From: Halohasta litchfieldiae | GTDB taxonomy: Archaea; Halobacteriota; Halobacteria; Halobacteriales; Haloferacaceae | Assembly: GCF_002788215.1 (NCBI RefSeq) | Contig: NZ_CP024845.1 | Span: 1,674,001-1,738,000, forward strand | Direction of reading: 5' to 3' | DNA: 64,000 nt | Part shown: one piece after another, positions 35,102 through 50,045 of the stretch | Numbering within the stretch: position 1 is the stretch's first letter | Layout of the letters: each line of letters starts with the position of its first letter | Made by a program: the position numbers and the translations under genes | Notes under the pieces: generated by a model | Told to the model about the DNA's origin: nothing | The model's input: only the letters and a program-made list of their open reading frames with translations | Database searches by the model: none

Positions 35102-35680
35102 GTGACAGAAACACAACCCTCCGGCAGTGACCTCCTTTCGGGGGCGGTCGCTGGAATCGTGACATGGATAGTCGGCTATGTGGCAACCTACCTTCTGGTG
35201 GCCCCAAACGTCCGTGAGTCGGGACTCGCCCGAATCATCGACGTACTGGACGGCGAACCGGCGACCCACGAGCTGGTCGGCTGGGTGTTTTATAATGCCC
35301 ATATGGTCGACACGGTGTTTCGAGAAATCCCGCTGATTGGCTCGCGGACGATGACATACATCGGCGGCGAATCCGGGTTTACGACCCTCTTGTATCTGGT
35401 TCCAGTCGCCCTCCTCTTTGCGGCGGGGCTCGCACTGGCACGGTATCGGGCCGTCGAGAGTCCGACCGCAGGGGCGATCATCGGAAGTATGGTCGTGCCG
35501 GGCTACCTGCTTGGGACGGTCGCCGGCGTCTTTCTGTTCGAGGTGACGATTGGTAGTGCCACCGGCGGCCCGGATCTCGTGACCGCGGTCGTCCTCGGCG
35601 GGCTCATCTATCCGCTGGTGTGTGCCGGCGGTGGCGGGGCGGTCGGTGGGCTGCTGGAACGCCGGACTCGAAGCCAGTAG
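35102..35680 (+). CDS. Haloarchaeal membrane protein, GTG start
   Basis: A 192-residue protein with about five transmembrane helices (roughly 12-33, 90-112, 118-146 and 154-180 are the clearest) and a hydrophilic loop (about 35-85) predicted outside. It resembles the haloarchaeal DUF7978-type transporter-like proteins from memory only; no transport motif is visible. The final helix is Gly-rich (CAGGGGAVGGLLERR). Divergent from the PAPS reductase-like gene, sharing about 200 bases of promoter region. Confidence 0.8.
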   Translation: MTETQPSGSDLLSGAVAGIVTWIVGYVATYLLVAPNVRESGLARIIDVLDGEPATHELVGWVFYNAHMVDTVFREIPLIGSRTMTYIGGESGFTTLLYLVPVALLFAAGLALARYRAVESPTAGAIIGSMVVPGYLLGTVAGVFLFEVTIGSATGGPDLVTAVVLGGLIYPLVCAGGGGAVGGLLERRTRSQ

Positions 35681-35771
35681 CCGCTCAGATGCCGTAAACG
35701 GGCCTAATTGGGCGAAACTGTGGGCCAACTGTCTCGTGGTCTTATTGGTCTCTCGGTCCTGTAGATACTTG

Positions 35772-36509
35772 ATGACAGATCACAACGCAGCTTCGACGAA
35801 TCGACGCAACTACCTCGGGGCTGTTGGCGGGCTTGCAGCAATGAGTACAGTCGGGCTTGCGGGCTGTATGGGCGGCTCGTCGGATGCAACCGGGCTGCTG
35901 TCGACGGCGGTCACCGACCAGCCGGGCGACATCGCCGACTTCGAGTCGTGTGTCGTCACCATCGACGGCATCTGGGTCAAACCGGCCAGCGAGGACGACA
36001 CCAACAGCGAGGACGACACCAACAGCGAGGACGACACCAACGAAACCGACGACGGTGTTCAGGAGCAGGACGAGGAAGACGTCGACGAGGGAGATAGTCG
36101 GGAATATTACGAATTCGAGGAGCCACAGGAGGCCGACCTCGTCAATTTGCAGGATGGCAACACCCAGCTCGTCGACGAGGACCGCGAGCTGACGGTCGGC
36201 GACTACGAGTTCCTCCAGCTCGACATTGCGGACGTAACGGGGATCCTTGCCGACAGTGGCGAGGAGGCGACCGTCGACACACCCGGCAGCGCGCCGCTGC
36301 AGTTCAAACACCGCTTCGAAATCCGGGAGAACCAGCGAACGACCTTCACCGGCGACTTCACGCCCGTCAAACGGGGACAGACTGGCCGCTATCTGCTCCA
36401 GCCGGTCGCCACCAACACCGGCGTCAGCTACGAGGCGGTCGACTCCGAGGAAACCGACGGTAACGAAACCGACGGCAACGAAACCGACGGCAACGAAACT
36501 GAGCAATAA
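35772..36509 (+). CDS. DUF4382 Tat lipoprotein
   Basis: A 245-residue exported lipoprotein. The N-terminus has the twin-arginine-like NRRNYLGAVGG and lipobox GLAGCMGG, so it should be lipid-anchored on the outside. The mature part matches DUF4382: LLSTAVTDQPGDIADFESCVVTIDGIWV, then QEADLVNLQDGNTQLVDE and GDYEFLQLDIADVTGI. Two low-complexity tracts, (SEDDTN)x3 inside the domain and (ETDGN)x3 at the C-terminus, come from exact DNA repeats. DUF4382 function is unknown. The start at 35772 is the last one giving a proper signal. Confidence 0.88.
   Translation: MTDHNAASTNRRNYLGAVGGLAAMSTVGLAGCMGGSSDATGLLSTAVTDQPGDIADFESCVVTIDGIWVKPASEDDTNSEDDTNSEDDTNETDDGVQEQDEEDVDEGDSREYYEFEEPQEADLVNLQDGNTQLVDEDRELTVGDYEFLQLDIADVTGILADSGEEATVDTPGSAPLQFKHRFEIRENQRTTFTGDFTPVKRGQTGRYLLQPVATNTGVSYEAVDSEETDGNETDGNETDGNETEQ
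35988..36041 (+). repeat. Three exact tandem copies of an 18-base unit
   Basis: Units at 35988-36005, 36006-36023 and 36024-36041 each encode SEDDTN inside the DUF4382 lipoprotein. Confidence 0.9.
36450..36494 (+). repeat. Three tandem copies of a 15-base unit
   Basis: GAAACCGACGGNAAC repeats at 36450-36464, 36465-36479 and 36480-36494 encode ETDGN three times at the C-terminus of the DUF4382 lipoprotein. Confidence 0.9.
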
Positions 36510-36593: not shown

Positions 36594-37676
36594 ATGGATA
36601 GTTGGCGTCCCCGGACGGTCGTCGGTATCGCGCTCGTGGTCGCAGTCTGTGCCGGGCTCACGACCGGGTTGTTGGTGACAGGGCTCGATACAGCCCCGTC
36701 GACGCCCGCCGAGGAGCCACAGCCACCAACCCAATCGCTCGATACTGAGGCACTGTACAACGAGACGATTGATTCGGTTGTCACGGTGTACGTTGTCACT
36801 GCGGAGGGCGCATCGAGCGGTTCGGGGTTCGTCTGCGACAGTGATGGGCACTTGGTCACCAATCAGCATGTGATCGATGACGCAACGACCGTTCAAGTCC
36901 GATTCGGCGCTCGCGGCGAGTGGCGAACGGCGACGGTGGTTGGTGAAGACCCGCGCTCCGATCTCGCAGTGCTTTCGGTCGACCGACTCCCCGACAGCGC
37001 CGAACCACTCGCCCTCTCGAATCGCCAGCCCAGACAGGGTGAAGCAGTCGCCGCCGTCGGCTCGCCGCTCCGACTCGAAGGGACGATCACGACCGGCGTC
37101 GTTAGCGGCGTCGACCGCTCGCTTCGGCTCCCGAGCGGGCCGCTCGTCCCCGACGTGATCCAGACCGATGCCGCGATCAACCCCGGCAACAGCGGTGGTC
37201 CCCTGCTTGACTCCGGAGGCACAGTCCTCGGAGTCAACACCGCCCGGGCAGCCGCCGACAACATCGGCTTCACCGTCTCGGCGACGATGGTCGACCGCGT
37301 CATCCCCTCGCTGATCGAGTCCGGCAACCACACGCATCCGTATCTCGGCGTCGAGACCCGAACTGTCGTCCCGGCGATTGCGACCGCGAACAATCTCAGC
37401 GAGATCCATGGTGCAGCCATCGTGGCCGTCGACCGCGAGGGACCTGCGGCGGGGCGGCTTCGTGGGCCACAGCGGGCCGAGACGGTCGACGGCCAGCGAG
37501 TGCCGGCCGGTGGCGATGTGATCGTGAGCGTCGACGGTGGCCGAATCGAGACCGATCACGACCTGCTCCGATACATTGCACTCGAAACGGAGCCGGGCGA
37601 AACAGTCAGTGTCGGCGTGGTGCGCAACGGCGAGCGACGGACGGTCGACGTGCGACTCGGTGAACGAGTGCCGTAG
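36594..37676 (+). CDS. HtrA-type trypsin-like serine protease with PDZ domain
   Basis: A 360-residue protease anchored or exported by an N-terminal hydrophobic segment (about 8-31). The catalytic triad is His92 (VTNQHVID), Asp123 (RSDLAVLSVD) and Ser200 (NPGNSGGPLLD), in normal HtrA/DegP order, followed by a PDZ domain (about 265-358) with GGDVIVSVDGGRI. Members degrade or refold damaged exported proteins. The protein is intact and of the length usual for one-PDZ forms. It is convergent with the iron ABC permease. Confidence 0.93.
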   Translation: MDSWRPRTVVGIALVVAVCAGLTTGLLVTGLDTAPSTPAEEPQPPTQSLDTEALYNETIDSVVTVYVVTAEGASSGSGFVCDSDGHLVTNQHVIDDATTVQVRFGARGEWRTATVVGEDPRSDLAVLSVDRLPDSAEPLALSNRQPRQGEAVAAVGSPLRLEGTITTGVVSGVDRSLRLPSGPLVPDVIQTDAAINPGNSGGPLLDSGGTVLGVNTARAAADNIGFTVSATMVDRVIPSLIESGNHTHPYLGVETRTVVPAIATANNLSEIHGAAIVAVDREGPAAGRLRGPQRAETVDGQRVPAGGDVIVSVDGGRIETDHDLLRYIALETEPGETVSVGVVRNGERRTVDVRLGERVP

Positions 37677-37710: not shown

Positions 37711-39339
37711 TCAGTGATTGCTCCCGTCCTGTCTGAGAATAATGATCATCGAGAGCCCCGAAACGGCCAGCAAGAGCACCGAGGGAACCACCGCATACTG
37801 AAAGTAGGCGCTTTCCTGGGCTTTCCAGACGAGCGTGACGAGCGTTTCGAACCCCGTGGGCCGGAGGATCAGCGTCGCTGGAAGCTCCTTCATCGTCGTC
37901 AGAAACACCAGCGCGGCTCCGGCGACGATCCCCGGCGTCACCAGCGGGAGCGTGATCTTCCGGAAGGCAGCAACCGGCGAGCTACCGAGGCTCCGGGCGG
38001 CCTCACCGAGTTTCGGGTCGACCTGCAGCGTCGAGGTCCGAATTGAACCCACCGCCTGTGGCATGAACCGGACCACGTATGCAAAGACGAGGAGTGGCAG
38101 CGTCTGATAAATCTGTGGCCCGAAGGGGATGTCGGCGGTCTCGTACCCCGTCGCAAAGAAGACAAGCGCGAGCGCCAGCACGATCCCCGGGACGGCGAAG
38201 CCGACGTAGGTCGCCCGCTCGAAGAGGTTCGACAGCGGAGAGGCGTCTCTGGCGGCGAAGTAGGCCACCGGCACCGCCGCGAGCACGGCCACAACTGCAG
38301 CCGCCCCAGCCACCAACACGGAGTTGGTCACGTACTCCAGTTTGAGCCCCAACTCGGGGCGGGCAGCGAGATCGGCCGTGACGAGCCAGAGGCCGAGAAT
38401 CCACACCGGCACGAGGAGTGCAAGGCTCGTTACCGCCGCCGGAAACAGGGTCGCAGGCCACCGCCAGACGCCGAGTTCGATGAGTGGCTCGGTCGACTGG
38501 TCGTTGCCAACGCCATCGCCGTGGACCGTGTCATCCGGGCGAATTCGGGATTCAAGCGCGAGAACGACCAACACGATTCCAAGCAGTTGGATCGAGAGCA
38601 GCGAGGCGTAGTCCTGATTGAACGAGTTGAACTCGACGAAGATCTGGCGGGTAAACACCGGCAATCGCATGATTGCGGGAGTTCCGAAATCCGACACCGC
38701 ATACAGCGCCGCGAGCAGTCCCCCGGCGATGATGGCGGGCCGAACGTGGGGTAGGGTCACCCGCCGAAACGCCGCCCACCGGCCGTGGTTGAGACTCCGG
38801 GCGGCCTCCAAGAGCGAGGAGTCGAACGACAACAGCCCGGCGCGGGCGGTGAGATAGACGTAGGGATAGGTGTACAGCGTGATGACGAGGATCGAACCGG
38901 GAAGGCCGTATATTTCGGGGAGCTGTTCAATCCCGAGCGGCTGGAGCAGCGACTGGAACTCGCCACGGGGGCCGAACGCCGAGACGAACGTAAACGCGCC
39001 AATGTAGCTCGGCACGACCAGCGGCAGAGCGACCACAACCGACCAGAATCGCCGGAAGGGGAGGTCAGTCTGGACGGTCAGCCACGCCAGTGGGACCCCG
39101 ATGCCGACCGAGAACACGGTGACACCGGCCATCAGCAGGAGACTGTTGACCAGCGTCTCCACGGTAGCCGGTCTGAGAAGCAGGTTCCACGCCCGCGTCG
39201 ACTCGACCTTCGTAGCTTCCAGCAAGAGCCACGAAAGCGGGAGGATCATGCTCGCCGCAACCGCGCCGGCCAACAACGTCAGGCCAAGCGAGCGGTCGTC
39301 GGGATCGCCGGTGGCGGTGAGTCGGTCGAGGCGTGTCAT
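37711..39339 (-). CDS. Iron ABC transporter permease (FbpB/ThiP-like), fused two-domain
   Basis: A 542-residue permease made of two homologous halves of about six helices, each with an EAA loop for the ATPase: EAARSLNHGRWAAFRRVTLP and EAARSLGSSPVAAFRKITLP. This fused form is usual for ferric (FbpB/SfuB) and thiamine importers. The ferric-type binding protein at 46498 is the natural partner, and the gene borders the TTAGG-type operator at 39476-39489 in a divergent arrangement. No ABC ATPase gene is in the window. No TATA lies at -27 of the ATG at 39339, so a leadered transcript or a different start is possible. Confidence 0.9.
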   Translation of the reverse strand: MTRLDRLTATGDPDDRSLGLTLLAGAVAASMILPLSWLLLEATKVESTRAWNLLLRPATVETLVNSLLLMAGVTVFSVGIGVPLAWLTVQTDLPFRRFWSVVVALPLVVPSYIGAFTFVSAFGPRGEFQSLLQPLGIEQLPEIYGLPGSILVITLYTYPYVYLTARAGLLSFDSSLLEAARSLNHGRWAAFRRVTLPHVRPAIIAGGLLAALYAVSDFGTPAIMRLPVFTRQIFVEFNSFNQDYASLLSIQLLGIVLVVLALESRIRPDDTVHGDGVGNDQSTEPLIELGVWRWPATLFPAAVTSLALLVPVWILGLWLVTADLAARPELGLKLEYVTNSVLVAGAAAVVAVLAAVPVAYFAARDASPLSNLFERATYVGFAVPGIVLALALVFFATGYETADIPFGPQIYQTLPLLVFAYVVRFMPQAVGSIRTSTLQVDPKLGEAARSLGSSPVAAFRKITLPLVTPGIVAGAALVFLTTMKELPATLILRPTGFETLVTLVWKAQESAYFQYAVVPSVLLLAVSGLSMIIILRQDGSNH

Positions 39340-39466: not shown

Positions 39467-39472
39467 ATATAA
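39467..39472 (+). promoter_or_regulatory. TATA element of the GMC dehydrogenase operon
   Basis: ATATAA is centred 27 nt before the ATG at 39497; the iron-type palindrome at 39476-39489 fills the space between TATA and start. Confidence 0.6.
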
Positions 39473-39475
39473 GTT

Positions 39476-39489
39476 TTAGGTTTGCCTAA
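39476..39489. promoter_or_regulatory. DtxR/IdeR-type operator, box 1
   Basis: TTAGGTTTGCCTAA: 5-base arms TTAGG/CCTAA around a 4-base centre. It lies between the TATA element and the start of the 39497 operon, where a bound repressor would block polymerase. It is the exact reverse complement of box 2. Confidence 0.75.
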
Positions 39490-39496
39490 TCCGGCT

Positions 39497-40021
39497 ATGG
39501 AGCTGACGAGACGCGATGCGGTGGCTGCGCTGGGAGCGGTCGGAGCCGGCGGTGTCGGAGCTGTGGGCGTCCAGCGATACGCCACCGGTGACGAGGGCGA
39601 CCGCGAGGAGGAAGTCAGCGAAACACTGGTCGCCGCCGCCGAAGTGCTGTATCCCTCTGCGGTCGACGGGGTTCGGGAGTTCGTCGAGACGTTCATGGCG
39701 GGTCGACTCGACGATGGCGCTCACGCCGAGGGCGTCCGCGAGGCGGTTTCGGCGCTCGAAACGCGTGCGAACGCGTGGTACGATGATTCCTTTCAGGCCC
39801 TCTCGACCGAGGACCGGGATTCACTCCTCGAAGAGACCGGAGCCGATACCGCCGACGAAAACCCCGACGGGACACCCGCCGAACGCATTCGCTACTATAT
39901 TGTCAACGAGCTACTGATGGCACTGTATGCCTCCCCGACCGGCGGTGAGCTGGTCGGCATCGAGAACCCACAGGGTCACGCTGGCGGCCTCGATACCTAC
40001 CAGCGAGGGCCGAACGCGTGA
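39497..40021 (+). CDS. Gluconate 2-dehydrogenase subunit 3-like protein, Tat signal
   Basis: A 174-residue small subunit. It starts MELTRRDAVAALGAVGAGG, a Tat-type signal, and continues with the family pattern ETLVAAAEVLYPSAVDGVREF and IRYYIVNELLMALYASPTGGELVGI. In bacterial membrane gluconate/sugar dehydrogenases this subunit carries the Tat signal and the flavin subunit is exported with it. Here the GMC flavin subunit follows directly, its GTG overlapping this stop. No cytochrome c subunit is present. The promoter holds iron-type box 1. Confidence 0.9.
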   Translation: MELTRRDAVAALGAVGAGGVGAVGVQRYATGDEGDREEEVSETLVAAAEVLYPSAVDGVREFVETFMAGRLDDGAHAEGVREAVSALETRANAWYDDSFQALSTEDRDSLLEETGADTADENPDGTPAERIRYYIVNELLMALYASPTGGELVGIENPQGHAGGLDTYQRGPNA

Positions 40022-41640
40022 GCAGACCGCCCGCCCAAACCATCCAGCCTGAAAACGGGACTGTCGACCGAACCCCCGTTGCTGAGGCTGACGTCTGCAT
40101 CATTGGGTCGGGACCGGCTGGCTCGCTGGTGGCCAGTCGACTCGCCGAGGCCGGTCACGAGGTCGTTATTCTGGAGGCGGGCCAACGCTTTGCCTTTGAG
40201 GACCGACTCGCACGACAGGAGCGGGCGATCCGACCTACCTATGATCGCCCGGCGGTCTGGGACGGCGACCCCGAGCGGGACGCCCATTCGAACACTGGTG
40301 AGCGATTTTATCCGTTAAACCATGCTCGTGTCAAGGGCGTCGGCGGGTCGACGCTTCACTGGCAGGGGATGGTGATGCGGCTCCACGAGGCCGATTTTAA
40401 TTCGCAAAGCGAGCGCGGGGTCGGCGTCGACTGGCCCATCGACTACGAGGACCTCCAATCGTACTATGGCGAGGCCGAACGCGAGTTGGGCGTGGCAGGC
40501 GGCGACAATCCCTTCGCGCCACCGCGTGAGGAACCCCACCCCATGCCGGAGTTTCAGCCCTCCTACAGCGACAGTCTGTTTGCGGAGGCCTGCGACGAAC
40601 TCGGGATTGCGATGCATTCGGTGCCGAACGCCCGCAACTCCGAGAGCTACGACGGCCGCAGTCCCTGTGTCGGCTACGGCACTTGCCAGCCAGTTTGTCC
40701 GTCGGGAGCCAAGTACGACGCGACAGTTCACGTCGACCGCGCCGAGGAGGCCGGCGCGACAGTGATCGATCAGGCTCCCGTCCAGCGACTTGAGCATACC
40801 GTCGACTCGGTGACTGCGGCGGTGTACGCCACCCCGGATGGCGAGTACAGACAGGAAGCCGAGCAGTTCGTGGTCGCTGCAGGTGGGGTCGAAACCCCGC
40901 GGCTCCTCCTGCTGTCGGAATCCGAGCAGTACCCCGATGGGCTGGCGAACTCCAGCGGCACCGTGGGCAAGTTCTTCATGGATCACCTGTTCGCCGGCAC
41001 AGGCGGCGTCCTTGATGAACCCACGCGACAGGGCCACATCGGCTTTCTCACGAGCGAAAGCCACCAGTTCTACGACGAGGCCGACGCGGAGATCGGCCCG
41101 TTTAAACTCGAATTCTTCAACTACGACGGTCCCTCGCCCGTCGAGATGGCACTAACCGGCGACGACTGGGGCGACGACCTGCTGGATCGGCTCAACTCCG
41201 ACTACGGCACCCATATCGGCATGGGTGGGCTGGTTGAGTCGCTACCCAAGGAGGACAGCTACATCGGCCTCGACCGCAGCCGCACCGACGACCACGGCAA
41301 CCCGGTGCCGGATATCCACTGGAACGTCGACGACCGTGCGCTGCGGACCATCGAACGCGCCAACGAGATCCAAGAGCGGATCCTCGACGAACTGGGCGCG
41401 GAGATCACCTGGCAAGTCGGTCCTGACACCACCGGCCCGGCCTACCACCATATGGGAACGACCAAAATGGGCGACGACCCCGCCGCGAGCGTGGTCGACG
41501 CCTCCCTCCAAACCCACGATCTCGACAACTGCTGGATCGCCTCCAGCTCCGTCTTCCCGACCAGCGGGGCAATGAACCCCACGCTCACCATCGCCGCGCT
41601 CGCACTGCGCTGTGCCGACAGCGTCGACAACGCCCTGTGA
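40018..41640 (+). CDS. GMC family FAD oxidoreductase (sugar dehydrogenase large subunit)
   Basis: A 540-residue flavoenzyme starting at GTG 40018, overlapping the previous stop by four bases. The FAD-binding ADVCIIGSGPAGSLVASRL (about 24-42) is intact; the C-terminal GMC region has YHHMGTTKMG with candidate catalytic His477/478, and SGAMNPTLTIAAL. A Cys-rich stretch SPCVGYGTCQPVCPSGAKYD (about 217-236) is common in gluconate-dehydrogenase-type members. It lacks a signal peptide and probably rides the Tat pathway with the small subunit. Substrate unknown: an alcohol or sugar, with electrons passed to an external acceptor. Confidence 0.92.
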   Translation: MSRPPAQTIQPENGTVDRTPVAEADVCIIGSGPAGSLVASRLAEAGHEVVILEAGQRFAFEDRLARQERAIRPTYDRPAVWDGDPERDAHSNTGERFYPLNHARVKGVGGSTLHWQGMVMRLHEADFNSQSERGVGVDWPIDYEDLQSYYGEAERELGVAGGDNPFAPPREEPHPMPEFQPSYSDSLFAEACDELGIAMHSVPNARNSESYDGRSPCVGYGTCQPVCPSGAKYDATVHVDRAEEAGATVIDQAPVQRLEHTVDSVTAAVYATPDGEYRQEAEQFVVAAGGVETPRLLLLSESEQYPDGLANSSGTVGKFFMDHLFAGTGGVLDEPTRQGHIGFLTSESHQFYDEADAEIGPFKLEFFNYDGPSPVEMALTGDDWGDDLLDRLNSDYGTHIGMGGLVESLPKEDSYIGLDRSRTDDHGNPVPDIHWNVDDRALRTIERANEIQERILDELGAEITWQVGPDTTGPAYHHMGTTKMGDDPAASVVDASLQTHDLDNCWIASSSVFPTSGAMNPTLTIAALALRCADSVDNAL

Positions 41641-41675: not shown

Positions 41676-41689
41676 TTAGGCAAACCTAA
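41676..41689. promoter_or_regulatory. DtxR/IdeR-type operator, box 2
   Basis: TTAGGCAAACCTAA lies just upstream of TATAAA (41693-41698), which is centred 28 nt before the glycosyltransferase ATG at 41723. It overlaps the position of the TFB-recognition element and should block initiation when occupied. Confidence 0.8.
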
Positions 41690-41722: not shown

Positions 41723-42499
41723 ATGAGTAAGGTCACCCAGCGCGGGACGGACGCGGATGCAGCCAGCGAGGACGATGAGCCAGTAACAATCGGTCGAACA
41801 CCGGAAGACAGCAGCAAGGGTCCCTACACGTTCGAAGATCTGAGCGTCGTGATGGGCACCTACAACGAGGAGGCGGCGATTGCGAAAGTCATCTCGGACA
41901 TTAACGAGATTACAGATGGGAAAGCCGAAGTGGTGTGTGTCGACGGCTCGTCGGACCGGACGCCGGAGATCGCCCGCGAGCACGGGGCCCGCGTGATCGA
42001 ACAGGAACCACAGGGGTACGGCGTCGCGGTCAGCGCGGCAATCAGCGCGCCGGACCGGCCGGTCGTCGTTACCACCGACTGTGATGATACCTACCCGATG
42101 GAGCAGCTGCCGGAGTTCCTCGCCGAAATAAACGCGGGTGCAGATGTCGTCAGCGGTGACCGACTCTACCACGGCGCAGATGCAATGCCGGCGTTCAACC
42201 GCTTCGGCAATCAGGCCTTCGCGGCGATTGCGAGCGTGCTGATGGGAACGCGGGTCCACGACACGACGACTGGAATGCGAGCCTACCGCCGCGAAGTGAT
42301 CGAATCCATCGAGTGGACCGAAAACACCGGGCTGTCGGCCGAACTGCTGATCCGACCGCTAATGAGAGGCTACGAGATTCGTGAGGAGCCGATTGCCTAC
42401 CGCGAGCGGGCTGGCGAGACGAAACTCGATCCGATTCAGGGCGGCGCGGCGATTGCGAAGTCGATTGTGAAAGTCTGTCTCGAAGAGCGGTTCCGGTAG
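41723..42499 (+). CDS. Family 2 glycosyltransferase, dolichyl-phosphate sugar synthase-like
   Basis: A 258-residue GT-A enzyme without transmembrane helices. The core shows SVVMGTYNEEAAIAKVI, VCVDGSSDRTPEIA, PQGYGVAVSAAI and the metal site TTDCDDTYP, then VSGDRLYHGA and TTGMRAYRRE. This is the pattern of dolichyl-phosphate mannose/glucose synthases, which load a sugar onto a polyprenyl phosphate at the inner membrane face; DCDD in place of the usual DADL is a mild oddity. The promoter carries iron-type box 2, so expression should rise in iron starvation. Confidence 0.92.
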   Translation: MSKVTQRGTDADAASEDDEPVTIGRTPEDSSKGPYTFEDLSVVMGTYNEEAAIAKVISDINEITDGKAEVVCVDGSSDRTPEIAREHGARVIEQEPQGYGVAVSAAISAPDRPVVVTTDCDDTYPMEQLPEFLAEINAGADVVSGDRLYHGADAMPAFNRFGNQAFAAIASVLMGTRVHDTTTGMRAYRREVIESIEWTENTGLSAELLIRPLMRGYEIREEPIAYRERAGETKLDPIQGGAAIAKSIVKVCLEERFR

Positions 42500-44268: not shown

Positions 44269-46491
44269 TCAGGCCGTCGCTTCGAGTTGCGTCTCGAAGT
44301 CGACCCACGACGAGTGGGCATCGGAACTGTCGGGGAGATACGTCCCCTCGCTGCCACACCGCGTGACGAGCGTGCAGACGGTTCGTTCCGGCGGCCAGAC
44401 GGCTTCGATACTGCCACCGTCAGTCGACCGAACCGCCGCTTCCTGTCGATAGGTGAACGACGAGCCATCGGGAGCGAACAGCGTCACAAGTAGTCGAATC
44501 TCGTCGGTGTCGTCGACCGAAATCGCGGTCGTGTTTGACGAGAGCGTCCGCTCGGTCGACGTCGTCTGATTGGTGGTTGTGACGGTCTCAAGACGGGTTG
44601 CGTTGGGCGTGAGCCTCCAGTCGACGGTGATGTTGTCGGTTGGCGTGGTGAGATCGTAGCTGGTGGCTTCGCGGTCGGTTTCGAGTCGAACGGTGGCCCG
44701 ACTGATGCGGTTGGGGATACCGACAGTCGTCTCGCCGGCCAGCGAGTCGCCACGCCGGACGTCGAGCGGTTCGAGTTTTGGCGTGATGTAATCGTTGGGG
44801 TTCGGTGTCCACTCGCCGCGGTAGTCGTAGCGGTAGGTGGTTCGGTTGGGATAGGCATCAAGCACCTCGAAATCACCCGCCGGATCGCGGTCCAGCGCGT
44901 ACACCACCTCGCCGTCGAGGCCGGGGTCATTCCGAAGCGACTGGAACGGATGATTCTGCCACGGGCCGTAGGGATCGGGAATGAACACGAGCGCGTTGTC
45001 GAACTCGGTCTCCTCGATGGGTTCGTAGGCGACCTCGTACTTTTCAGTGGGACCGATGTTTTCCTCCAAGGGGTCGCCGAGTAGGGTTGCGTTCGCGCCG
45101 CCGACCACGAGGACGCTGGCGACAAGCACAGCAAGGGTCAGTCGACGCGCGGTTCGAGCCGAAAAGCGGGCCGCGAGGCGGTCGACGAAGTGACTCCCGC
45201 GGATGGCACGCCAGCCAGTCACGAAGCCAAACGCCCCGAACACCGACAGCGGAGCCAGCAGGTCAAAGTAGTAGAACGGGCCGAAATGGGCCACGAGGCC
45301 GGTGGTTGGATCGCTCAGCGTCGCCAGCATGTTGTAGTTCCCCCAGAAGGGAATGTTGCCGAGCGGCACCGAGACAAACAGCCCGGCGAGGAGGAGCCCT
45401 ACGGTCGGGTCGACGCGACCGGCCGACCACCGCCATCGACGGATGGCAACCACAAGGCCGACGACCGCTGCGGCCGTCCCGAGCAGCCCCCCAGTGAACC
45501 AGCGGGTGCCGAGATACTGGAGCGCGTAGCTGTTGGCCTCGATGGCGAGGGCAGGGGTGTACTCAACCGAGTGGTCGAGGATTTCGCGATAGCCGAATCC
45601 CGGACCGTCCAGCGGCGCGAACGCCTGATACGGAAACACCAGCGGCGAGCCGGTGATCCGGAGATTGTACGCCAGCGTCACGCCGACGAAGGCGAGCCCA
45701 CCCAGCGCGGTGAGTGCGTTGCGCCGAACCGGATCGGGAAGCGAGTGCAGTCGGTGCCGAACCGATCCATTGGGTCGTCGACCGACCGACAACCCATCCC
45801 GGCGCAGCGACCGACCGATAGTCCACACCGCGTGCAGTATAAAAGGGGCAGCGAATAGCACGGCCGTGTACGGTCGGGCGAAAAACGCGAGCCCGACAGC
45901 GATTCCTGCGGCCGCCGCGCTTCGCGTCGAGCCGGTTCGGACGCCGTGGAGATAGCCGACCGCAAAGGCGAGATTCAGGAACGTGGTCGGCGCGTAGGGC
46001 AAAAACACCGACGAGGTAAACAACGTCATCGGCGCGGCCGCAAAGACGAGCCCGGCAACCACGCCGACTCGCCGGTCGAAGGCCATCGAGCCGAGCACTG
46101 AGACGAACAGCGTACTCCCGGCAGCAATCACTGCCAGCGTCACGCGTGGCTCGCCGAACAGCGCCATCGACACCGCGAACAGCGCCGACGGCACCGGCCC
46201 GTACTTCGAGTAGAGTCGACCGCCGTCCTCGACGAAAAACCAGGGCCGGAACGCCTCACTGAGGTCGCCAGCAAACAGTTCGAGTTGGCCCTCAAGCAGC
46301 ATCGCGGCCTGCATGAGATAGACGCCTTCGTCGTGGTTGACCGAATGGTATGGGAAAACGACAGACGCGATGAAAAAGACGACAGCGCCCGACAGGGTGG
46401 CGACGGCGACCGCAAGCCACTGTTGGCGGTCGAGGGGCGCACGTCGACGTAGTCGGCGCAATCGACGCCGCAGTCGGGAGTCGGAAGACAC
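44269..46491 (-). CDS. ArnT/PMT-like family 39 glycosyltransferase
   Basis: A 740-residue membrane protein: a basic N-terminus ([12 protein letters not shown]), about eleven transmembrane helices, and an outer C-terminal soluble domain (about 480-740) rich in beta-strands. The first outer loop has HSVNHDEGVYLMQAA with the catalytic-type Asp54-Glu55 pair of GT-C enzymes, then RPWFFVEDGGRLYSKYGP. GT39-like enzymes move a sugar from a polyprenyl-phosphate donor to a lipid or protein on the outer face. Its ATG is 6 bases after the stop of the ferric-binding lipoprotein, so both are on one iron-controlled transcript. Confidence 0.88.
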   Translation of the reverse strand: MSSDSRLRRRLRRLRRRAPLDRQQWLAVAVATLSGAVVFFIASVVFPYHSVNHDEGVYLMQAAMLLEGQLELFAGDLSEAFRPWFFVEDGGRLYSKYGPVPSALFAVSMALFGEPRVTLAVIAAGSTLFVSVLGSMAFDRRVGVVAGLVFAAAPMTLFTSSVFLPYAPTTFLNLAFAVGYLHGVRTGSTRSAAAAGIAVGLAFFARPYTAVLFAAPFILHAVWTIGRSLRRDGLSVGRRPNGSVRHRLHSLPDPVRRNALTALGGLAFVGVTLAYNLRITGSPLVFPYQAFAPLDGPGFGYREILDHSVEYTPALAIEANSYALQYLGTRWFTGGLLGTAAAVVGLVVAIRRWRWSAGRVDPTVGLLLAGLFVSVPLGNIPFWGNYNMLATLSDPTTGLVAHFGPFYYFDLLAPLSVFGAFGFVTGWRAIRGSHFVDRLAARFSARTARRLTLAVLVASVLVVGGANATLLGDPLEENIGPTEKYEVAYEPIEETEFDNALVFIPDPYGPWQNHPFQSLRNDPGLDGEVVYALDRDPAGDFEVLDAYPNRTTYRYDYRGEWTPNPNDYITPKLEPLDVRRGDSLAGETTVGIPNRISRATVRLETDREATSYDLTTPTDNITVDWRLTPNATRLETVTTTNQTTSTERTLSSNTTAISVDDTDEIRLLVTLFAPDGSSFTYRQEAAVRSTDGGSIEAVWPPERTVCTLVTRCGSEGTYLPDSSDAHSSWVDFETQLEATA

Positions 46492-46497
46492 GGCTGC

Positions 46498-47631
46498 TTA
46501 GGTTTGGATGCCGACGTCCCGCATCATATCGATGGTTGTCTCGACATCGGAGAGCTCCGAGAGGGTGAGATCCGGCACGTCAAGCTCGTCAATCGACGGG
46601 AGTCGACCGACGGGGTCGACGCCGGAGATCAGTGGGTACTCGAAGGTCTCGACGGCGAAGTACTCTTGGGCCTCCGCGGACAGCAGGTGGCGGATGAAGT
46701 TCTGGGCAAGCTCCGGATCGTCGGCCTGATCGATGACCGCCGCGCCCGCAACGTCGAAGATCGAGCCCGCATCACCCTCGGTAAAGGCCGTCTCGATGGG
46801 CGCGTTGGGCGAACCGTCAAGCACACGCTGGATATAGTAGTGGTTCGCGAATCCGGCGTCGAGTTCGCCGTCAGCGACCGCTTGGGAGACCGCATACTCG
46901 TCGGGGTAGGATTCGATCCCACTGTCGACGATTCCCTGCAGCCACTCGCGGGTGGCTTCGTCGCCTTCGAGCTGGCGCATCGCGGTGACGAACCCCTGAC
47001 AGGAAGGGTAGGACGGTGCCCACCCCATATCGCCCTCGAAGTCGGGGAACGCCATCACGTTGGAGGGGATCTCCGAGGCGCTGTAGGCGTCGGTGTTGAA
47101 CGGCACCGACCGGGCGCGGCCGGAGATACCGGTCCACTGCTCGGTGTGGAACTCATCGCGCACCAGATCGGTGATCTCCGAGGACAGCGCCTGCGTCCGG
47201 CCCGCATCAGCGAGCGCGCCGAGGCCGCCGGAGTCGACGGTGTAGAACACGTCGGCGGGCGTCCCTTCGCCCTCCGTTTCGATCTGGGTGACCAGATCGC
47301 TGCCGCTGCCGTAGCGGGGGACCGGATCGAAATCCGGGTAGGTATCGTCAAAAAACGAGATCAGCTCGCCGACGAGGAACTCGCCGCGGCCGGAGTAGAT
47401 CGTCAGTTCGCCCTCAAGATCCGGCATCTCGGCTATCGGCGTCCCGCCGGGGGCATCCCGCCCCTCGCGACCCGAGCCGATCTGGCCGACCGAGGAGTCG
47501 ACTGTCTCCTCGTTGTCGGCCCCACCGAAGAGGCCAGTACATCCTGCAAGTGTCACCGAACCAATCGCCGCCGATCCGGCAAGGAATCGTCGACGGTTGG
47601 ATCGTCCAAACGAATCGTGTTGGTTGCTCAT
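46498..47631 (-). CDS. Ferric-ion ABC transporter substrate-binding lipoprotein
   Basis: A 377-residue Tat lipoprotein: SNRRRFLAGSAAIGS with lipobox LAGC (Cys31). The mature part is an FbpA/AfuA-type binding protein: GELTIYSGRGEFLVGELI, GSDLVTQIETEGEGTPADVFYT and VPFNTDAYSASEIP. These bind Fe(III) in FbpA relatives; thiamine-binding relatives are similar, so specificity is supported mainly by the iron-type operator (box 3) 4 bases upstream and the permease at 37711. The gene is followed 6 bases later by a GT39-like glycosyltransferase. Confidence 0.9.
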   Translation of the reverse strand: MSNQHDSFGRSNRRRFLAGSAAIGSVTLAGCTGLFGGADNEETVDSSVGQIGSGREGRDAPGGTPIAEMPDLEGELTIYSGRGEFLVGELISFFDDTYPDFDPVPRYGSGSDLVTQIETEGEGTPADVFYTVDSGGLGALADAGRTQALSSEITDLVRDEFHTEQWTGISGRARSVPFNTDAYSASEIPSNVMAFPDFEGDMGWAPSYPSCQGFVTAMRQLEGDEATREWLQGIVDSGIESYPDEYAVSQAVADGELDAGFANHYYIQRVLDGSPNAPIETAFTEGDAGSIFDVAGAAVIDQADDPELAQNFIRHLLSAEAQEYFAVETFEYPLISGVDPVGRLPSIDELDVPDLTLSELSDVETTIDMMRDVGIQT

Positions 47632-47633
47632 GT

Positions 47634-47651
47634 TTTTAGGCTAGCCTAAAA
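47634..47651. promoter_or_regulatory. DtxR/IdeR-type operator, box 3 (perfect 18-base palindrome)
   Basis: TTTTAGGCTAGCCTAAAA is a perfect inverted repeat whose 14-base core (47636-47649) matches the other boxes. On the minus strand it lies between the TATAAG at 47655-47660 (27 nt before the ATG) and the ATG at 47631. It contains CTAG, a tetramer generally scarce in haloarchaeal DNA. Confidence 0.85.
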
Positions 47652-47654
47652 CAA

Positions 47655-47660
47655 CTTATA
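47655..47660 (-). promoter_or_regulatory. TATA element of the ferric-binding lipoprotein gene
   Basis: TATAAG on the minus strand, centred 27 nt before the ATG at 47631. It overlaps the last codons of the RGP-like gene. Confidence 0.65.
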
Positions 47661-48822
47661 CCCGTCGGTTCGCTGCTGGTTCGGCGGCCTGCTCGATGCC
47701 TTCGAGGCAGTCGAGCCAATCGCCCATGAACTCGCCGATGTAGTTGAAGAAGTCACCGTTGTTGTACTCCGACCAGTCGCCGTCTGCGAGTTCCTCGGCC
47801 ATCGCCGCGAAAATGCGGGCGTAGGGGTCGTCGGCATCCGAGAGGTCGGGGTCGACCTCGTCGACGATCTCCCAGAGGTGTTCGTTGAGTTCGAGGCCAG
47901 GGACCTCGTTGTTGAGGTCGTCGAAGGTGCTTCGTGGGGCCTTGTTGTGCTCACACAGCGGGAGGCCGTTGTAGATCTGCTTGTCGAGGATGTCGCAAGC
48001 ACGCTTGAGGAACACGCCCGACCAGATGTCGTCGAACCGGCCGACGTCCCACTCGTTTTCGTCCATCGGGAGTTGGTAGAACGCCGGAATCACTTCACGC
48101 TCGAAGGCGAGATTCATCGAGCAAACAGTCAGATAGTTGTCCTCGGCAGCGACGAAATCGCCCTCGAAATCCTCTCGCGTGGTTCGGGTCTGAGCCTGTC
48201 CCTGCAGGTCGCCGTCCATCAGAATCCGGACCGCATCGAGATCGGGCACGTTGGTCCACAGCCCCTGCGAGGCGACGATGTTGTCGACCTCGGTCGTCTC
48301 GGTCTCAACGCTCTCGTGCATCGCCGAGTAGGGGTAGCCACGCGGGTAGAGATCGTGTTCCTCGGCGTTCTGGTAGAGGACGTTGACCCACTGCTCGTCC
48401 GAGGAAACCGATTCGATCTCGCCCTCGAAGTCGAGATTCTCCATGTGGGTTCCGAAGAAGTCCTCGTCGTGAGGCAGGGTGTCGTCGTCGATAAAGAAAC
48501 CGTAGTCGTAGTCGCCGGCCCACATGTAGAGCAGGCCGAAACTCGTCTCGGCGTGGCTGGCCGCGGGGACGATGTGGCTGTACTCCGAAACGTCGTGGGC
48601 CTCGAACCACTCCTCTCGGCGCGAGCCGTCGAAGACTTCGCCGTCGACGCCCTCCTCGTCCAACATCGCCTGCATCTCGTCGGTGTCACAGAAATCTTCG
48701 GTGATGAGGACGACGTGAAGCCGCGAGAGGTCGAAGTCGTGATCGCGGGCGTTCTGGAAGTACGACCGCATGCATTCGTACTCCCGGATCGTCGGCACCA
48801 TAACGCAAATGTCCTGACTCAT
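47656..48822 (-). CDS. RGP-like protein (reversibly glycosylated polypeptide family)
   Basis: A 388-residue cytosolic protein of the family annotated in haloarchaea as alpha-1,4-glucan-protein synthase. It begins SQDICVMVPTIREYECMRSY, has the acidic metal-type motif GFFIDDDTLPHDEDFFGTH (Asp112-114), and later NLAFEREVIPAFYQLP and GRFDDIWSGVFLKRA, all typical of plant RGP/UDP-arabinopyranose mutases. Plant members interconvert UDP-arabinose ring forms and self-glycosylate; the archaeal reaction is unknown. It has its own iron-type box 4. Confidence 0.88.
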   Translation of the reverse strand: MSQDICVMVPTIREYECMRSYFQNARDHDFDLSRLHVVLITEDFCDTDEMQAMLDEEGVDGEVFDGSRREEWFEAHDVSEYSHIVPAASHAETSFGLLYMWAGDYDYGFFIDDDTLPHDEDFFGTHMENLDFEGEIESVSSDEQWVNVLYQNAEEHDLYPRGYPYSAMHESVETETTEVDNIVASQGLWTNVPDLDAVRILMDGDLQGQAQTRTTREDFEGDFVAAEDNYLTVCSMNLAFEREVIPAFYQLPMDENEWDVGRFDDIWSGVFLKRACDILDKQIYNGLPLCEHNKAPRSTFDDLNNEVPGLELNEHLWEIVDEVDPDLSDADDPYARIFAAMAEELADGDWSEYNNGDFFNYIGEFMGDWLDCLEGIEQAAEPAANRRV

Positions 48823-48840: not shown

Positions 48841-48854
48841 TTAGGCTATCCTAA
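48841..48854. promoter_or_regulatory. DtxR/IdeR-type operator, box 4
   Basis: TTAGGCTATCCTAA with flanking T and A runs, 18 bases upstream of the RGP-like ATG at 48822. A minus-strand AATATTTT (48853-48860) overlaps its upstream edge and probably serves as the TATA element, about 35 nt from the ATG, implying a very short leader. Confidence 0.78.
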
Positions 48855-48905: not shown

Positions 48906-50006
48906 TTACTGAGCAGCCTCCGCGGCGGTCCCCTGTTGGGCGGCCTCCGTCGGCGAGACGCCCAGCAGGGTGATCGCTGCGGCCCCGCCGACGAGCGTAA
49001 CTCCGTTTTTAAGCGCGTGGTCGACGACGGCAGCGGCGAGCGCGGTTGGCGCGCCGATTGGTGTGAGCGCGACGACCAAGGCGGTAAAGGCGGCCTCGTA
49101 GAGGCCGATGCCGCCCTGTGAGAGCGGCAGAACCTTGGCGAGATTGCCGACGCTCACCGCGAGCGTCCCGACCGCAAGCAGAGGGCCAAGGGCCAGACCG
49201 CTGTCGAGAGCCGCGAGCACGAGAATCGCAGTGCCAACGTCCAGCGACCAGATCAGGAGGCTTCCGGCTCCGATGACGCTTATCGCGCGTGGGTTCCGGG
49301 CGACGACCGCGATATCACCGGCGAAACTGGCGATGGCTGCAACCGGTTTCCGAAGTTGCGGAAACTGGTCGACAACGCTCGCGGCAATCGAGCCGGGTCG
49401 ACGGCCCGAACGTGCGACCAGCACCGTCGAGACGCCGACAACGAGGGTGATCGCAGTCACGCCACCGGCGGCGAGGAGCGCGGTTCTGGCCCCGTCGGCT
49501 TCAGCGACCAGTTCCAGCGGGCCAGCGACGCCGCCGAGGGCGAGCCACGCGAGGGTGACCCCACCGAGCACCGCAATCGAGGCGAGATCGAAGACGCGTT
49601 CGATGGCCAACGACGCGAAGCCAGCGGGGTACGGCACCTCCCGGCGGGCGTGCAGGATGTAGGCCCGAACCGAATCACCGGCCCGCGCCGGAAGCACGAG
49701 GTTCGCCGTCTGGCTTATAAAGACCGCAAGGGTGAGAAACGTCGACCCCAGCGGATAGCCAGTGGTCGACAGCACCTCGCCGTACCGCTTGCCCCGAAGC
49801 GGCCACGAGAGGGTATAGAGGCCGACAGCGGCCGCAAGCAGCCACGGGTCGGTCCGAGCGACAATCGTGAGCACCGCGTCGACGTCGACGTCCCGAAGCG
49901 CGACGAGCAGGCCAGCAAAAATGAGCACTGTCCCCCCGATTGTGAGATGGCGTCGGGTCACCAAGGCTCGAAGGCCGTCTGTCCACCGACCGCCGGAGCG
50001 AGTCAT
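48906..50006 (-). CDS. Flippase-like membrane protein (UPF0104/LPG synthase TM family)
   Basis: A 366-residue protein with about eight or nine transmembrane helices in the UPF0104 pattern: DPWLLAAAVGLYTLSWPLRGKR, NLVLPARAGDSVRAYIL, and the C-terminal NLAKVLPLSQGGIGLYEAAF. The family includes MprF-like and AglD C-terminal domains and is linked with moving or modifying lipid-linked groups across the membrane. Here it is flanked by sugar enzymes and has an iron-type operator (box 5) at its promoter. Transport of a polyprenyl-phosphate sugar is an inference. Confidence 0.88.
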   Translation of the reverse strand: MTRSGGRWTDGLRALVTRRHLTIGGTVLIFAGLLVALRDVDVDAVLTIVARTDPWLLAAAVGLYTLSWPLRGKRYGEVLSTTGYPLGSTFLTLAVFISQTANLVLPARAGDSVRAYILHARREVPYPAGFASLAIERVFDLASIAVLGGVTLAWLALGGVAGPLELVAEADGARTALLAAGGVTAITLVVGVSTVLVARSGRRPGSIAASVVDQFPQLRKPVAAIASFAGDIAVVARNPRAISVIGAGSLLIWSLDVGTAILVLAALDSGLALGPLLAVGTLAVSVGNLAKVLPLSQGGIGLYEAAFTALVVALTPIGAPTALAAAVVDHALKNGVTLVGGAAAITLLGVSPTEAAQQGTAAEAAQ

Positions 50007-50027: not shown

Positions 50028-50035
50028 ATATTTAA
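50028..50035 (-). promoter_or_regulatory. TATA element of the flippase-like gene
   Basis: Minus-strand TTAAATAT centred 25 nt before the ATG at 50006; it overlaps the edge of operator box 5. Confidence 0.6.
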
Positions 50036-50045
50036 GCCCACCTAA
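50032..50045. promoter_or_regulatory. DtxR/IdeR-type operator, box 5 (one mismatch)
   Basis: TTAAGCCCACCTAA keeps the CCTAA arm and has TTAAG in place of TTAGG. Placement directly on the upstream edge of the TATA element matches the other boxes, which is why I keep it despite the mismatch. Confidence 0.55.

Follow-up and report, generated by a model that had tools for sequence, protein, structure and literature searches.

The closest described relatives of the genes analyzed here are bacterial flavin dehydrogenases. The FAD-dependent glucose dehydrogenase of Burkholderia cepacia is a gamma-alpha-beta complex, the gamma-alpha part of which is represented by the PDB entries 6a2u, 8grj, and 8hdd. 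Fructose dehydrogenase, whose large subunit is found in 7w2j and 8xcm, has a cytochrome c partner. Gluconate 2-dehydrogenase has a subunit 3 after which the Pfam family PF13618 is named. According to the available text of PMC12542777, a mineral-weathering GMC oxidoreductase of Collimonas, which has a small subunit exported by twin-arginine translocation (Tat), a GMC subunit, and a cytochrome subunit, produces gluconic acid and, through acidification, brings iron minerals into solution. In this study, I analyzed a stretch of 64,000 nucleotides (the window) of the 3.33-Mb genome of the haloarchaeon Halohasta litchfieldiae (contig NZ_CP024845.1, positions 1,674,001 to 1,738,000). It encodes a two-gene relative of these enzymes, composed of a small subunit and a GMC-type FAD subunit, behind an iron-type operator.

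A dehydrogenase pair without a cytochrome subunit

The small subunit gene (39497 to 40021, forward strand; 174 amino acids starting with MELTRRD) overlaps by 4 nucleotides with the GMC gene (40018 to 41640, forward strand; 540 amino acids, GTG start). The former product has a Gluconate_2-dh3 domain (PF13618; E = 2.2e-9, exceeding the Pfam cut-off) and an N-terminal twin-arginine motif. The latter has both GMC domains (PF05199, E = 7e-24; PF00732, E = 3.3e-13) and no signal peptide visible by eye, its FAD-binding domain beginning at about residue 23. Since the Pfam TAT_signal model did not report the small subunit of the window at E 0.01, the Tat assignment was made from the twin-arginine motif and the hydrophobic stretch. 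For comparison, 120 dehydrogenase loci were collected, 40 of them spread over genera from 154 matching genomes and 80 being the best of 203; 116 loci were distinct, and 111 of these had a recognizable small-subunit start. Residues M1, L3, R5, R6, and D7 were invariant in all of 30 aligned small subunits. A lipobox-like cysteine follows the twin-arginine region in 26 of the 111 relatives and is absent from the window protein. Thus, the coordinates, the domains, and the 30 of 30 arginine pairs confirm the original prediction that a Tat-type small subunit overlaps a GMC subunit lacking a signal of its own. As a small Tat-type subunit is encoded together with the catalytic subunit, export of the pair is predicted.

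The pair had also been likened to bacterial gluconate-type dehydrogenases. This likeness is borne out by PF13618, which is shared with gluconate 2-dehydrogenase, and by whole-length matches of the GMC subunit to the B. cepacia alpha chain (residues 19 to 536; E of about 1e-84) and to the large subunit of fructose dehydrogenase (7w2j; E = 1e-73). In the B. cepacia enzyme, the cluster ligands are Cys212, Cys218, and Cys222, the FAD-linking residue is His105, the His/Asn pair is at 476 and 519, and the glucose contacts are Asn474 and Asn475, as given in the available part of PMC6719666. The window residues were matched to these through the alignment with the alpha chain. The 3Fe-4S cysteine triad (C-x5-C-x3-C; C217, C223, and C227), the catalytic H477 and N520, and the predicted FAD-linking H114 were found at the same positions, and each is kept in 117 of 117 GMC sequences. 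Judging from these residues, the enzyme belongs to the sugar or polyol dehydrogenases that bear such a cluster. In contrast to the B. cepacia enzyme, the glucose contacts N474/N475 are not kept in the 117 compared sequences, all of the operator-bearing clade; A475 is present in 115 of them, and position 476 is Y in 96 and F in 16. Because the two asparagines are replaced by A/Y, the substrate is probably a compound other than glucose. The Cys213 of the inter-subunit disulfide is also lacking.

As in B. cepacia, the gene for the small exported-type partner lies just upstream of the catalytic one. Unlike the B. cepacia, fructose, gluconate, and Collimonas enzymes, the haloarchaeal pair has no adjoining gene for a cytochrome subunit. 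When the region from -5.5 to +5 kb was inspected for a multihaem cytochrome c (beta) subunit, an acidic open reading frame with a CxxCH motif was found in 1 of the 116 loci, and it matches no cytochrome family. The absence of the usual cytochrome c subunit, as originally noticed, is therefore real, and the pair is not classed as a full three-subunit complex. The small subunits differ as well: that of the window matches PF13618 and not PF12318, while two bacterial ones match PF12318 only, and a profile comparison of the window protein with one bacterial PF12318 partner gave no match. The predicted structure of the small subunit, with a mean pLDDT (a per-residue confidence score) of 80.7, had no Foldseek match at E 0.001 and a best VIA-align Z of 4.4; the B. 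cepacia gamma chain is missing from these fold matches, which was not counted as evidence. In the PDB, its profile matched, at low scores (best E = 0.00092), only proteins that are unrelated or designed and for the most part helical. The model of the GMC subunit was not used (shallow alignment; mean pLDDT of 53.4). Sequence comparison thus supports an exported-type flavin dehydrogenase of the gluconate/glucose/fructose dehydrogenase kind, devoid of the cytochrome subunit and placed in a genetic context different from that of fructose dehydrogenase.

An iron-type operator in the shared promoter

A TATA-like element, ATATAAG, was read directly at 39467 to 39473 (forward strand), and the relatives have an A/T-rich element at the same place. 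Between this element and the start codon, a palindromic operator of iron type, TTAGGTTTGCCTAA, occupies positions 39476 to 39489 (forward strand), 7 nucleotides before the ATG. The pair differs in this trait from the B. cepacia glucose dehydrogenase and from gluconate 2-dehydrogenase; for Collimonas, neither such an operator nor glycan genes are described in the available text of PMC12542777. Is the operator common in the relatives? It was found before the small subunit in 111 of the 111 loci, with no mismatch in 104 and with one mismatch in 7, and it ends 7 to 15 nucleotides before the start. The original prediction, in which the operator lies between TATA and start in a shared promoter, is thus confirmed. 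Five further loci fall outside the 111; four of them have the operator before the pair or before the GMC gene, and one stops at a contig edge. When 392 genomes of the order were searched with a strict pattern that combines the operator with the start of the small subunit, 98 gave a match (backwards control, 0). This is an undercount, as the site of the window itself is missed by the strict pattern.

Two trivial explanations of the operator were rejected. Chance is one of them, since the reversed pattern occurs with up to one mismatch in 0 of the 111 loci and the operator pattern occurs about 300 nucleotides upstream in 0 of 111, never with fewer than four mismatches. The other is that the operator is a bystander of a divergent permease gene; it is kept also in loci where the pair has moved away from the permease and from the whole iron locus.

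At up to two mismatches, 10 operator matches (five sites, each on both strands) were listed in the window against 1.15 expected, and the whole genome has 9 perfect sites against 2 for the backwards pattern. The genomic sites include those before FbpA and before a siderophore-type transporter (Peripla_BP_2/FecCD/ABC; locus L004). Thus, a feature of DtxR-type regulons, a conserved palindromic operator at iron-gene promoters, is present, and two places in the genome exceed the cut-off of the DtxR family (PF01325). According to the available text of PMC11349517, which cites Leyn and Rodionov 2015, a signal of the ferR regulon is present in the fhu operons of haloarchaea. Because the operator is conserved and FbpABC genes are neighbors, it is very likely that the dehydrogenase pair is under iron control; on these grounds of sequence, the iron-type control that had been predicted stands. 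The position of the operator would let a repressor block a leaderless promoter.

Linkage with a ferric importer and glycan genes

Divergent from the dehydrogenase operon is an FbpB-type ABC permease gene (37711 to 39339, reverse strand) with two BPD_transp_1 stretches. A second operator, TTAGGCAAACCTAA, was found by a pattern search of the window at 41676 to 41689 (forward strand), before a dolichyl-phosphate hexose transferase gene (41723 to 42499, forward strand), whose product exceeds the NF041391 cut-off and has a dolichol monophosphate mannose synthase as the nearest PDB chain. On the reverse strand, domain and family matches identified a GT39-like glycosyltransferase with DUF7846 (PF25230; 44269 to 46491), an RGP-family protein resembling nucleoside-diphosphate-sugar mutases (47656 to 48822), and a flippase-like membrane protein of the UPF0104/LPG_synthase_TM type (48906 to 50006). 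The same strand encodes an FbpA-type ferric-iron-binding protein (46498 to 47631; match to 7w3w, E = 4.7e-53) with a conserved tyrosine pair, Y265/Y266. Pattern searches placed, without assigning a strand, the operator TTAGGCTAGCCTAA before FbpA (47636 to 47649), TTAGGCTATCCTAA before the RGP gene (48841 to 48854; searches of window and genome), and a weak operator-like site with two mismatches before the UPF0104 gene (50032 to 50045).

The tyrosine pair of the FbpA family binds Fe(III). The motif NHYY with this pair is kept in 80 of 80 FbpA relatives, and the importer is, as judged from these residues, a ferric and not a ferrous FbpA-type system. The nearest PDB matches of the RGP protein are entries labeled 'transglycosylse' such as 7xpr, followed by the UDP-arabinopyranose mutase 8cid. 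The UPF0104 family, which includes HVO_1859, is a proposed flippase for lipids or lipid-linked sugars in the available text of PMC5898192.

A solute-binding protein (SBP), RGP, or GT39 gene is nearby in 84 of the 116 dehydrogenase loci. Counted gene by gene with up to one mismatch, the operator lies upstream of the small subunit (113/113), RGP (73/74), UPF0104 (35/39), the transferase (78/92), FbpA (61/79), and the permease (31/96), and it is rare or absent upstream of GMC (2/116), GT39 (0/80), and GalE (0/25). Seventeen module loci were also fetched around GT39 where GMC is elsewhere or missing (L165 to L181). The order RGP-FbpA-FbpB-FbpC-GT39 was found in 16 of them, the exception (L170) having no FbpC between the permease and GT39; an operator precedes RGP in all 17 and FbpA in 15. 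In one dehydrogenase locus (L058), the pair is placed between FbpB and FbpC. In Halobaculum limi, the small subunit, GMC, a protein with a propeller like that of pyrroloquinoline quinone (PQQ) enzymes, RGP, FbpA, FbpB, the ATPase, and GT39 are colinear.

The distribution of the GMC gene was then compared with that of GT39. GMC was found in 154 of 170 genomes of the family to which the window organism belongs, and 14 of the 16 genomes without it (4 of the 16 being less than 90% complete) also lack PF25230. Conversely, PF25230 is present in 15 of 15 family genomes in which the pair and the module are separated. Of 155 genomes sampled evenly across the order, 102 have both genes, 47 have neither, 5 have GT39 alone, and 1 has GMC alone, this last being G293, whose GMC is at 58% identity. 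Fisher's test, which ignores kinship, gives p of about 1e-32 for the co-occurrence. It is probable that the dehydrogenase is functionally part of a regulon comprising FbpABC and the glycan genes.

Several variants of these arrangements were observed. In genome G168, the small subunit now lies behind GT39 with its own operator (L170:9059-9623), while GMC is found elsewhere, behind an operator and an apparent degenerate remnant of the small subunit without the arginine pair (L072:8889-9025). In Halosimplex aquaticum (L156:7960-9611), the operator directly precedes a GMC gene that has no adjoining small subunit. The PQQ-like beta-propeller gene of Halobaculum limi lies at L182:10635-11846, in the interval between GMC and RGP. 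An FbpC-type ABC ATPase gene of Halohasta (L006:3268-4585) is distant from FbpA and FbpB and has its own operator. Across haloarchaea, glycan enzymes flank a ferric importer in the RGP-FbpA-FbpB-FbpC-GT39 run (44269 to 48822 in the window), and this run with its iron-type operators is possibly more notable than the dehydrogenase itself.

Relatives without the operator

The nearest operator-less haloarchaeal relative of the pair was found on a Halarchaeum plasmid (L183:3252-14413, NZ_CP054708.1), with a GMC 58.7% identical by tblastn. Its neighbors are genes for an arabinofuranosidase, a sugar ABC transporter, and xylose dehydrogenase, and no operator with up to two mismatches exists within the 19.6 kb of this locus. 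A second operator-less relative is encoded on a plasmid of DL31. In a tree with bacterial outgroups, the Halarchaeum sequence forms the sister branch of the operator clade with its 117 sequences (support for the joint clade, 0.987), and DL31 branches earlier. In these two relatives, the catalytic His is preceded by G-S and S-T, compared with A-Y/F in the operator clade. Contact residues that are nearly constant in the operator clade and different in the two operator-less relatives are as a dedicated substrate would predict. As a lead from two outgroups, a single recruitment to an iron-related function, accompanied by a change of substrate, may have occurred in a dehydrogenase whose ancestor perhaps served carbon use.

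A possible role in iron acquisition

The gene identities, the conservation of motifs and operator, the shared operators, and the co-occurrence are read from the sequences; the export, the iron repression, and the order of steps in the following scheme are what I infer from them, and its substrate, product, and chelation are guesses. When iron is present, a DtxR-family repressor would occupy the operator that separates the TATA element from the leaderless start. A shortage of iron would lift the repression, and the pair would be produced. The Tat system would export the folded pair, with the small subunit carrying the GMC subunit. The RGP-type mutase and the dolichyl-phosphate hexose transferase would prepare a lipid-linked sugar, the UPF0104 protein would flip it, and GT39 would transfer the sugar at the surface. 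The exported dehydrogenase would oxidize a sugar belonging to this same iron-starvation regulon, and the product, a sugar acid or keto-sugar, would bind Fe(III) and hand the iron to FbpABC, while the electrons would pass to the respiratory chain via a carrier. The strongest further signal, that the pair is co-regulated and co-occurs with glycan-making genes, indicates the oxidized sugar rather than the electron as the useful product. The Collimonas enzyme, which also combines exported sugar oxidation with iron mobilization, is a precedent. I give the whole explanation, a surface sugar oxidized into a ferric ligand for FbpABC, a probability of about 0.42. The chelating-sugar chemistry taken by itself is tentative. 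A haloarchaeal glycan-assisted ferric uptake, in which an iron-repressed, lipid-linked, possibly furanose sugar is oxidized at the surface and feeds FbpABC as a cell-bound sugar siderophore, is a doubtful extension.

Some points weigh against this explanation. The dehydrogenase needs three iron atoms, which is odd for iron sparing. No expression or activity data for the pair were found in the literature searched. HVO_1859, a protein of the same family as the one encoded at 48906 to 50006, increased 11.6-fold in the proteome of iron-starved H. volcanii, according to the available part of PMC11349517. GT39 occurs without GMC in the five genomes of the order sample and in G049 and G053, so the glycan module can function without the dehydrogenase. 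Furthermore, the joint loss could be a single deletion, because GMC and the module are adjacent in many relatives.

In the original prediction, an exported dehydrogenase could pass electrons to Fe(III) outside the cell and aid uptake. Such a transfer would run either straight from the 3Fe-4S cluster or via a carrier. The iron-type operator, the iron transporter neighbors, and the retained surface cluster motif are consistent with such a surface ferric reductase, and the lack of a dedicated adjoining cytochrome c subunit leaves the acceptor open. However, the co-regulated importer has the Fe(III)-binding tyrosine pair in every relative, and since the FbpA type binds ferric iron, reduction would deprive the importer of its substrate. 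In addition, no electron conduit was found near the pair, and the operators before glycan genes would be left unexplained. Transfer to extracellular Fe(III) is thus so far unsupported, and I consider it unlikely.

An improbable alternative is a respiratory bypass at low iron, in which sugar electrons enter a copper protein or quinone in place of iron-rich complexes and energy is saved, with no role in uptake. In the available part of PMC11349517, 9 of 11 Nuo subunits are lowered in the iron-starvation proteome of H. volcanii, and in bacterial relatives a multihaem cytochrome c subunit accepts the electrons (PMC6719666, available part). The tie to FbpABC and the glycan genes would remain unexplained by this bypass, and the locus, to which the search was confined, revealed no carrier. 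Equally improbable is that the enzyme only trims or oxidizes a surface sugar during envelope remodeling under iron stress, with no direct binding of iron. The links to RGP, the transferase, the flippase-like protein, and GT39 would fit such glycan editing, but in many genomes FbpABC lies inside the same gene run, suggesting a role in transport. Ordinary carbon use by a catabolic sugar dehydrogenase, with the operator serving the divergent permease, is suggested by the arabinose/xylose locus of Halarchaeum and is very improbable, because the operator keeps its distance to the start even where the pair is detached from the permease and the iron locus, while the Halarchaeum locus lacks an operator with up to two mismatches and branches outside the operator clade.

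The proposed oxidation of a surface sugar for FbpABC assigns a clear function, open to testing, to an enzyme that is very common in haloarchaea and named so far only GMC family oxidoreductase. It would connect archaeal surface sugar chemistry with iron supply and hints at an unrecognized sugar-based iron acquisition in haloarchaea. In control searches, PF13618, PF05199, PF25230, and PF01325 all matched in Haloferax volcanii; as this laboratory species has good genetics, the idea is testable there. Among open-licence papers, as far as their available text goes, no link of the dehydrogenase to iron in archaea was found. GMC is absent from the text of a Halorubrum biofilm paper, and a paper on denitrification in H. 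mediterranei gives iron-uptake genes, GMC not being among them.

Additional observations

In the window, a DUF4382 protein with acidic repeat runs (DDTNSE and TDGNE; 35622 to 36509) is encoded beside an HtrA-like protease (36594 to 37676). Elsewhere, tandem operators 20 nucleotides apart (L005:4686-4733) were found near a cobalamin adenosyltransferase gene, with a DtxR-family gene about 3 kb away. An operator also precedes a pair of genes for a lycopene-cyclase-like protein and a beta-carotene dioxygenase (L007:4272-4285), which may be due to chance or may reflect a link between iron and retinal synthesis.

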